NCBI RefSeq assembly: GCF_900167415.1
Contig: NZ_FUWU01000011.1
Span: 1 to 64,000, forward strand
Direction of reading: 5' to 3'
Length of the DNA: 64,000 bases
Source of the DNA: Fibrobacter intestinalis
GTDB lineage: Bacteria; Fibrobacterota; Fibrobacteria; Fibrobacterales; Fibrobacteraceae
The position numbers were made by a program, and so were the translations under genes. The notes under the pieces were generated by a model. It was not told the origin of the DNA. It saw only the letters and a list, made by a program, of their open reading frames with translations, and did no database searches. Positions 10,719 to 24,310 of the stretch are shown piece after piece; position 1 is the first letter of the stretch; each line of letters starts with the position of its first letter.

Positions 10719-11804
10719 ATGTTGAAAAATGAATTTCAGTTTGCCGGAGTCGGCGTTTCTCCCTGTACGGTGCTTTCTCCTATGGCCGGCGTGACCGACG
10801 CTCCTTTTCGCCGATTATGTCGGATTTTGTCCGGAAATCGAATGGGACTTCTGGTTTCGGAATTTGTATCGACAGATGGAACTTCGCCGTTTGTTTTGAA
10901 AAATCGCAAACAGCTCCATTTTTACCCGGAAGAACGCCCCTTTGGAATTCAAATTTTTGGCCGGGATCCGGAGCGGATGGCTTATGCGGCTCAAGTTCTT
11001 GAATCTTTGCGGCCCGATTACATTGAAGTCAATGCGGGCTGTCCTGTTCCAAAAGTCGCTGGGAAGGGTGGAGGCGCGGGGCTTTTAAAGGACTTGCCGC
11101 GACTGGCCAAAATTCTTTCGGAAGTCAAAAAGGCGATAGCGATTCCGATGACGCTCAAATGTCGTGTCGGCTGGGATGAAAATTCCATCAATGTCATGGA
11201 AACTTTGAAAATTGCAGAAGTGGAAGGGGCTGATATGCTGACGGTCCATGGCAGAACACGAGTGCAGGGGTATAACGGTTTTGCGGACTGGAACTTGATT
11301 GGCGAAGTTGCTGCTGCGGCAAGGATTCCTGTGGTCGGCAACGGCGATGTTTCCAGCGTTCAATCCGCTCTTGAAAAATTGGAAAAATATGCGATTAGCG
11401 GAGTTTCCATTGGACGAGGAGCTTTGCACAATCCGTGGCTTTTTGGTGAAATTGCGGACGCATTAGAAGGCAAACCTGCGCGGGATGTGTCCGCACAAGA
11501 AGCTTGTGGTATTTTCAAAATTTATTACGAATTGATGGCGGAAGAATGCGAATCTTCGCCTTTTGGAATGCTTGGGCGATTGAAACAGCTGGCGGCCAGA
11601 CTATGCAAGGGCTTTGAACCGGACTCGTCGGAATTTCGGCAGCGGGTATTGACAAGCCAGAGCTTAGAAGAGCTTTTTGAAAATGCGGACAGGTTTGCAG
11701 AATTTGCGCAAAGCAACGGAATACGCTTTAATCCTTCGCGCTTGGTTAATTTGAACGGTCGCAAGGAAAATTCGGTTTCGTTTGACAGGCAATTCAAAGG
11801 CTGA
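10719..11804 (+). CDS. dusB: tRNA-dihydrouridine synthase (DusB-like)
   Basis: 361 residues from the ATG at 10719; the longer frame back to 10599 would overlap the HU start and adds a non-family leader. FMN-dependent TIM-barrel enzyme reducing uridines in the tRNA D-loop. Visible motifs: LSPMAGVTDAPFRRLC at 19-34, NAGCPVPKVAGKGGGAGLLKD with catalytic Cys108, TVHGRTRVQGYNGFADW, and GNGDVSS plus SIGRGALHNPW for FMN phosphate binding. It ends 11 bases inside the convergent allophanate hydrolase gene, so the two stop codons overlap on opposite strands with no room for a terminator between them. Confidence 0.87.
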   Translation: MLKNEFQFAGVGVSPCTVLSPMAGVTDAPFRRLCRILSGNRMGLLVSEFVSTDGTSPFVLKNRKQLHFYPEERPFGIQIFGRDPERMAYAAQVLESLRPDYIEVNAGCPVPKVAGKGGGAGLLKDLPRLAKILSEVKKAIAIPMTLKCRVGWDENSINVMETLKIAEVEGADMLTVHGRTRVQGYNGFADWNLIGEVAAAARIPVVGNGDVSSVQSALEKLEKYAISGVSIGRGALHNPWLFGEIADALEGKPARDVSAQEACGIFKIYYELMAEECESSPFGMLGRLKQLAARLCKGFEPDSSEFRQRVLTSQSLEELFENADRFAEFAQSNGIRFNPSRLVNLNGRKENSVSFDRQFKG

Positions 11805-23700: not shown

Positions 23701-24310
23701 CCCGGGCGGTTATCAATTTGTAGGAAGAACGGTGCAAATGTGGAACCGGTTCAAAAAGACTGCAGACTTTCCGTTGCCGTATTTGCTGCGCTTTTTTGAC
23801 CAGATTCGCTTTTACGAAGTTTCTGCAGATGATCTTTTGCAGATGCGGAAGGATTTCGTCGCGGGTAAGTTCCATGTCAAAATCGAGGAAAGTTCGTTCG
23901 ACATCACGGAATACGAGAATTTTCTCGCGGACAACGCTCAATCGATTGCCGCTTTTGAAATCAAGCGGAAAACGGCTTTTGAAGAGGAAAAGGAACGCTG
24001 GATTCGCACGGGGCAATTCACCTTTGAAATCCACAGTGCCGAATCGGCTCCTGTTGCCGAGGTGACGCTTTCCGAAGGCGAAGAAGGTGTCTATTCGCCG
24101 GTCGCCGGAAGCCTGTGGAAACTTGTCGTCAGCGAAGCCGGGAAGCGTGTCAAGGCTGGCGAGACTCTGGCTGTCCTTGAAAGCATGAAGACGGAAATCC
24201 CCGTTGTCGCGGACGAAGATGTCGTCGTTTCGCAGGTCTTTGCGAAGCCCTCGATGGAAGTGCGTTCCGGCCAGTGTCTGTTTGCTGTTAAACCTTCGCC
24301 GTGTTCTTAA
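20708..24310 (+). CDS. Biotin-dependent guanidine/urea carboxylase
   Basis: 1200 residues, a complete single-chain enzyme. Biotin carboxylase domain 1-450 ([16 protein letters not shown], the ATP loop [26 protein letters not shown]). Carboxyltransferase domain, with its two KipA/KipI-like halves, about 455-1090 ([63 protein letters not shown]). Biotin carrier domain at the C-terminus with LESMKTEI and biotinyl Lys1161. Asp697 in the VDFTGD motif takes the place of an Asn (NFTGD) seen in yeast-type urea carboxylases; as I recall, Asp here (Asn1330 in the K. lactis enzyme) marks guanidine carboxylases. It has no fused allophanate hydrolase, which is encoded at 11794. AGGAG precedes the ATG. Confidence 0.88.
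   Translation: [1200 protein letters not shown]

Follow-up and report, generated by a model that had tools for sequence, protein, structure and literature searches.

Does the locus at positions 11794–24310 of the window, that is, of the 64,000-nucleotide stretch of DNA analyzed here, degrade guanidine rather than urea, and how is its expression controlled? Guanidine metabolism came to light through riboswitches and almost every guanidine operon described so far is, to our knowledge, under RNA control. The enzymatic route, consisting of guanidine carboxylase, CgdAB and allophanate hydrolase, is known from Pseudomonas syringae DC3000, Raoultella and Klebsiella (Schneider 2020 and Sinn 2021, as cited in PMC12186494 and PMC11410670).

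The locus comprises, in order, genes for an allophanate hydrolase and a ROK-family-like protein (both on the minus strand), followed on the plus strand by three importer genes, UAAP1, UAAP2, UAAP2b, an α/β hydrolase and a carboxylase (Table 1). A preliminary description had listed an importer, UAAP1, two UAAP2-type proteins, a single-chain carboxylase and a separate allophanate hydrolase; every one of these genes is recovered by profile matches, and the list has to be completed with the ROK gene, the α/β hydrolase, the operators and the sigma-54 promoter, which it left out. Two start codons are most likely to be revised: that of the allophanate hydrolase gene from 13605 to the ATG at 13497, with a ribosome-binding site and an operator falling between the two positions, and that of the binding protein gene from the GTG at 14870 to the ATG at 14903.

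Table 1. Features of the locus, with positions in the window
Feature	Position	Strand	Basis
Allophanate hydrolase, amidase + AH_C, predicted pathway step 3	11794..13497	-	TIGR02713, PF01425, PF21986
Candidate operator ACTTTATAAAAACCTTTTATAAAGT, ends 13 bp upstream of allophanate hydrolase ATG	13511..13535	.	exact pattern match, PWM 34.1 bits
ROK-family-like protein, candidate regulator	13637..14632	-	PF00480
Second, weaker candidate operator copy near ROK start	14676..14700	.	one mismatch, PWM 28.3 bits
Main candidate operator, perfect 13-bp arms GACTTTATAAAAA-G-TTTTTATAAAGTC	14767..14793 (25-bp pattern 14768-14792)	.	conserved
Predicted sigma-54 (RpoN) promoter TTGGCATTGCTTTTGC, GG-N10-GC	14851..14866	+	consensus match
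ABC importer substrate-binding protein, NMT1/SsuA-like	14903..15886	+	TIGR01728, TIGR03427, both sub-cut-off
ABC importer permease	15916..16980	+	PF00528
ABC importer ATPase	16967..17806	+	PF00005
UAAP1, DUF1989, presumed non-catalytic subunit of carboxyguanidine deiminase	17843..18559	+	TIGR03425
UAAP2, DUF1989, presumed catalytic zinc subunit	18575..19228	+	TIGR03424
UAAP2b, second UAAP2-type subunit, all zinc ligands kept	19225..19860	+	TIGR03424
α/β hydrolase, esterase / kynurenine-formamidase-like	about 19853..20680	+	PF20434, PF07859
Guanidine carboxylase (predicted); biotin carboxylase + carboxyltransferase + biotinyl domains; Asp697, Asp950	20708..24310	+	TIGR02712

The allophanate hydrolase scores well above the TIGR02713 cut-off (671 versus 511 bits), carries a C-terminal AH_C domain and matches the 4gyr allophanate hydrolase in a phmmer search (E = 5.6e-147). 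The three-gene ABC importer spans positions 14903–17806; its substrate-binding protein scores 155 bits against TIGR01728 and 137 bits against TIGR03427, each below the cut-off. The α/β hydrolase, whose match to 9n8r Lipase 1 has an E-value of 4e-62, is encoded at the same position in all Fibrobacteraceae loci and is absent from the loci of the f4 family and from 80 outgroup loci. Elsewhere, the window contains complete 23S and 5S rRNA genes at its start (134–3302), NADH-quinone oxidoreductase genes (52003–60010) with recognized G-, L- and M-type subunits, of which the NuoG-like protein (534 aa) scores below the family cut-off, and a gene for a FISUMP (Fib_succ_major) domain protein (61745–62848), in keeping with Fibrobacterota.

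In the pathway that we propose, guanidine would be taken up by the ABC importer and converted by the carboxylase, with HCO3- and ATP, to carboxyguanidine; the DUF1989 deiminase (UAAP1, UAAP2 and UAAP2b) would then yield allophanate and NH3, and the allophanate hydrolase would split allophanate into 2 NH3 and 2 CO2. The first argument for this scheme comes from the carboxylase, a single chain of 1200 residues that matches TIGR02712 over residues 2–1194 (1795 bits versus a cut-off of 1304). The preliminary description had drawn attention to Asp697, located in VDFTGD where yeast-type urea carboxylases have NFTGD, and had named a displacement of this residue from Asn1330 of the Kluyveromyces lactis enzyme as the outcome that would undo its reading. 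When the enzyme is aligned with 5i8i, the K. lactis urea amidolyase (numbered over its full length), the two residues coincide, with no gap nearby. Asp950, within GLGDVYLG, corresponds to K. lactis Asp1584 (offset derived from the 5i8i alignment). Asp residues at both K. lactis positions, 1330 and 1584, are demanded of guanidine carboxylases in a 2024 study (PMC11410670); the window carboxylase has both of these published residues and lacks the Asn that marks urea carboxylases at position 1330.

The distribution of the two carboxylase types provides a second argument. Among 106 carboxylases compared, 104 are of the Asp type and two of the Asn type, namely L118, from a genome of another family of the same phylum (G164), and L139, a plasmid locus with urtABCDE. 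UAAP genes adjoin nearly all Asp-type carboxylase genes for which flanking sequence is available, and are found at neither L118 nor L139. Likewise, DUF1989 (UAAP) genes are present in 20 of the 168 genomes of the phylum, a set identical to that of the genomes encoding an Asp-type carboxylase if G154 is included, where the carboxylase copy is split over two contigs; the Asn-type genome G164 has none. Note that in L118 the allophanate hydrolase gene directly adjoins that of the Asn-type (urea) carboxylase, which makes this locus a natural urea counterpart within the phylum. Finally, the importer genes display 53–59% identity to Methylotenera counterparts (L039; 53% for the substrate-binding protein) that lie directly downstream of a guanidine-I riboswitch, an arrangement that links importers of this kind to guanidine. 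Altogether, the two Asp residues, the co-occurrence of Asp-type carboxylases with DUF1989 proteins and the riboswitch-linked relatives of the importer support the view, already put forward in the preliminary description, that the locus is a guanidine rather than a urea locus, with guanidine as its predicted substrate.

How this locus is controlled is a separate matter. Neither the window nor 16 other loci from Fibrobacterota gave an Rfam match to a guanidine-I, -II or -III riboswitch, and guanidine-I was detected in none of 168 genomes of the phylum; riboswitch control of the window locus was rejected since nothing credible was obtained there either at the gathering score or at E-values up to 10. 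The same search retrieved guanidine-I in five of six proteobacterial loci, three of which also gave guanidine-II. Besides, the predicted leader, delimited by the GC element of the promoter (14865–14866) and the ATG at 14903, is about 25 nt long, which would be too short for an aptamer.

The GG-N10-GC sequence at 14851–14866 is the only match to the sigma-54 consensus in the window (0.08 expected). Every Fibrobacteraceae locus for which this region is available has a box of the form TTGGCA(T/C)-N4-TTTGC at the corresponding position; in five of the six f4 loci, this position is taken by a distinct box, TTGGTAYG..GATTGC, and 15 outgroup loci with the importer binding protein also have a sigma-54 box (about 0.01 expected per 500 bp). 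The rpoN gene is present in all six genomes of the window's genus. A sigma-54 promoter requires an activator of the nitrogen-control type: the window's genome encodes five strong sigma-54 activator domains, none of which was recognized among the genes around the locus. The operon would be expressed from the sigma-54 promoter via such an activator, and the nitrogen-scavenging role suggested in the preliminary description gains support from the predicted promoter. As an aside, sigma-54-type boxes are found about 220–280 bp upstream of the importer genes in L039, L042, L045, L041, L079 and other proteobacterial guanidine loci, where nitrogen control and riboswitch may be stacked.

All 12 Fibrobacteraceae loci for which this region is available have a palindrome in the interval that separates the importer genes from the ROK gene. 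A pattern search of the 3.29-Mb genome with the 25-bp palindrome (PWM scores being given for individual sites) returned exactly two exact matches, one before the importer genes and one before the allophanate hydrolase gene; in the 111 genomes of the family, all 14 exact sites adjoin the importer promoter, the allophanate hydrolase gene or the ROK gene. On these two grounds, a chance match was rejected. One-mismatch sites in G140 (contig 1) and G147 have no such neighbor that we recognized, and they occur at the chance level given by a reversed control pattern. The operator tracks the allophanate hydrolase gene: in three genomes where this gene is relocated to a separate unit, it keeps an operator of its own, at 1424–1448 ahead of the gene at 1509 in G100 (L132), with one mismatch on contig 15 of G090, and at 5066–5090 ahead of the ATG at 5152 in G150 (L156). 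In the last case, a genome of another genus, the stretch L156:5066–7041 consists of the allophanate hydrolase gene behind its operator, and no carboxylase, DUF1989 or ROK gene was detected in the genome, so that a remnant or an assembly gap may be involved.

The candidate regulator matches PF00480 with 33.8 bits (cut-off 22.9) over residues 122–233, only part of the ROK domain; the NagC profile aligns with residues 9–234, and there is no separate HTH Pfam match. Its gene is present in 14 of the 111 family genomes, that is, the 13 with the locus and G070, and in none of the other 97. Of the 14 genomes with the ROK gene, 13 have an operator site with no more than one mismatch, versus 2 of the 97 without the gene (Fisher p = 5e-14). 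From this co-occurrence and from the position of the sites, we infer the palindrome to be the target of the ROK protein, which is likely to act as a repressor of the locus. It would repress by binding the 25-bp palindrome ahead of the importer operon, of its own gene and of the allophanate hydrolase gene, and guanidine or a pathway intermediate would release it. The His of the ExGH motif and the zinc Cys cluster of ROK sugar kinases are absent (AGELSYFPF in the 13 aligned ROK proteins), which makes a sugar effector unlikely; the effector is thus probably of another kind. As a side observation, G070 carries the ROK gene and one operator copy without guanidine genes (L155:12028–13203), and the ROK gene there adjoins genes for a likely carboxynorspermidine synthase and a biosynthetic arginine decarboxylase. 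The complete Fibrobacteraceae loci hence combine a ROK-type regulator with a palindrome upstream of a sigma-54 promoter, apparently a new regulatory arrangement.

The main rival to repression by the ROK protein is that the palindrome is the enhancer site of a sigma-54 activator, the ROK protein having another role or co-regulating. Indeed, an operator placed 58–81 bp ahead of the sigma-54 promoter might just as well serve an activator: the palindrome is centered about 98–120 bp upstream of where transcription is predicted to start, as is usual for enhancers, and the spacing is phased, since twelve loci have a gap of 79–81 bp between operator and sigma-54 box and that of the window, 58 bp, is shorter by about two helical turns; the five activator domains of the genome are also in line with this possibility. 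Against it, one copy of the palindrome is placed as a repressor site would be, ending 13 bp before the start codon of the allophanate hydrolase gene, another lies beside the ROK start, no sigma-54 activator gene is recognized nearby and the palindrome shares its distribution with the ROK gene. Two genomes speak against our main reading, G150 with an operator before the allophanate hydrolase gene in the absence of detectable ROK, carboxylase and DUF1989 genes, and G070 with ROK gene and operator but no guanidine genes. On balance, we consider the enhancer reading unlikely and favor the ROK protein as a repressor.

We now turn to the deiminase. UAAP1 exceeds the TIGR03425 cut-off (302 versus 206 bits) and UAAP2 that of TIGR03424 (307 versus 285 bits), while UAAP2b, at 268 bits, falls slightly below the latter. 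Zinc ligands were assigned by alignment to trimethylamine N-oxide (TMAO) demethylase, in which the DUF1989 ligands are C263, H276, C279 and C343 (PMC12560246). The ligands of UAAP2 are Cys108, His125, Cys127 and Cys192, and UAAP2b has all of them; UAAP1, like its group, has other residues in the ligand columns. The locus therefore contains subunits of the UAAP1 and UAAP2 groups, as judged by profiles and tree, of which one type keeps the zinc ligands and the other has lost them, a pattern in agreement with a published account of CgdAB in which one partner of the enzyme is inactive (PMC11271267). Presumably, UAAP1 is the structural partner, UAAP2 the zinc subunit and UAAP2b a second zinc subunit of the deiminase.

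UAAP2b is present in all 13 Fibrobacteraceae genomes with the locus, the six f4-family genomes having only two DUF1989 genes. Acquisition from elsewhere was rejected since the tree places UAAP2b, which has a long stem (0.505), as sister to the resident Fibrobacteraceae UAAP2 (support 0.951); by this placement, it is an old lineage-specific duplicate of UAAP2. It departs from residues that are invariant in UAAP2, with EGN for ESN and CAQL for CPQL. UAAP2b and the α/β hydrolase might allow the pathway to accept substituted guanidines, for instance methylated, acylated or ester-bearing guanidino compounds, free guanidine then being an intermediate and not the sole substrate. Both genes were gained together in one family, where 13 of 13 genomes with the locus have them, neither being found in f4 or in the 80 outgroup loci; moreover, UAAP2b combines an intact zinc site with changes at invariant positions and a long stem, and the hydrolase is similar to esterases and to kynurenine formamidase. 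Yet the carboxylase, UAAP1 and UAAP2 show the conservation seen in ordinary guanidine loci, and we hold such an extension to be rather improbable. As for a urea locus, in which the carboxylase would act on urea as in the urea amidolyase pathway with the UAAP proteins as bystanders, the urea-based names of TIGR02712 and TIGR03424/5, the failure to find a urease alpha gene in the window's genome, which would make a urea route useful, and the lack of the riboswitch that marks the guanidine type in Proteobacteria speak for it, but Asp instead of Asn at position 1330, the lack of UAAP genes at the two Asn-type loci, L118 and the urtABCDE-bearing L139, and the guanidine-I control of importer and carboxylase counterparts elsewhere in bacteria make it very improbable.

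Within the phylum, a carboxylase above the family cut-off is encoded by 20 of 168 genomes: all six of the window's genus, seven of the large sister genus g6, five of f4 and two of f5, the f4 genome G154 having a split copy. The Fibrobacteraceae carboxylases form one clade near those of Gammaproteobacteria and Campylobacterota (support 0.85–0.97), away from f4, which suggests that the pathway reached the phylum more than once; single inheritance within the phylum is not favored by this grouping, although the deep f4 node has a weak support (0.47). F. succinogenes S85 was scored negative in a 2011 survey (PMC3073912), in agreement with the patchy distribution of the locus. The preliminary description knew of no account of this trait in Fibrobacterota, and we also found no paper on guanidine catabolism in the phylum, in a search that covered mainly the open-access literature. 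With the same coverage, no paper linking guanidine catabolism to a ROK regulator or to sigma-54 was found.

Taken together, these data make it highly probable that the locus encodes a guanidine pathway under dedicated control at the DNA level. A broader proposal, to which we give an even chance, is that Fibrobacteraceae use a ROK sensor that has lost its sugar site and responds to guanidine, or to carboxyguanidine or allophanate, together with sigma-54, in place of riboswitches, and that UAAP2b and the hydrolase extend the substrate range. We know of no guanidine-responsive transcription factor, and a ROK sensor, if confirmed, would be the first. With its candidate protein regulator, a clean regulon of two sites and a promoter of the nitrogen type, the locus lends itself directly to asking whether proteins sense guanidine; it also suggests guanidine as a possible nitrogen source of fiber-degrading gut bacteria, and its patchy spread (6/6 genomes in the window's genus, 7 in g6) makes the trait testable between close relatives.

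Comparison with known systems sets the locus in perspective. The urea carboxylases and urea amidolyases (K. lactis 5i8i, L118 and L139) share with the window enzyme its fold, its length and about 50% identity, but the window differs by the Asp for Asn at position 1330 and by its UAAP genes. NagC-type ROK repressors resemble the candidate regulator in the PF00480 match, in a NagC profile alignment that starts at residue 9 and in an AT-rich palindromic site, whereas the window protein is devoid of the ExGH His and of the Cys-rich zinc motif of sugar binding. Operons with guanidine-I or -II riboswitches (RF00442, RF01068) control the same genes, and a sigma-54-type box likewise lies upstream in some of those from Proteobacteria; the window has instead a palindromic DNA site, a ROK protein and a predicted leader of about 25 nt. 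The closest relatives are the CgdAB pathway systems, which likewise have the three enzymes, UAAP1 beside UAAP2, an ABC importer upstream and the two diagnostic Asp residues. Unlike these, the window locus has three DUF1989 subunits, an extra α/β hydrolase, an allophanate hydrolase in a separate divergent unit, a ROK-type regulator and no known guanidine riboswitch. The predicted enzyme chemistry is thus that of the known pathway, and what is apparently new here is the third deiminase subunit and the regulation deduced from its conserved sites.
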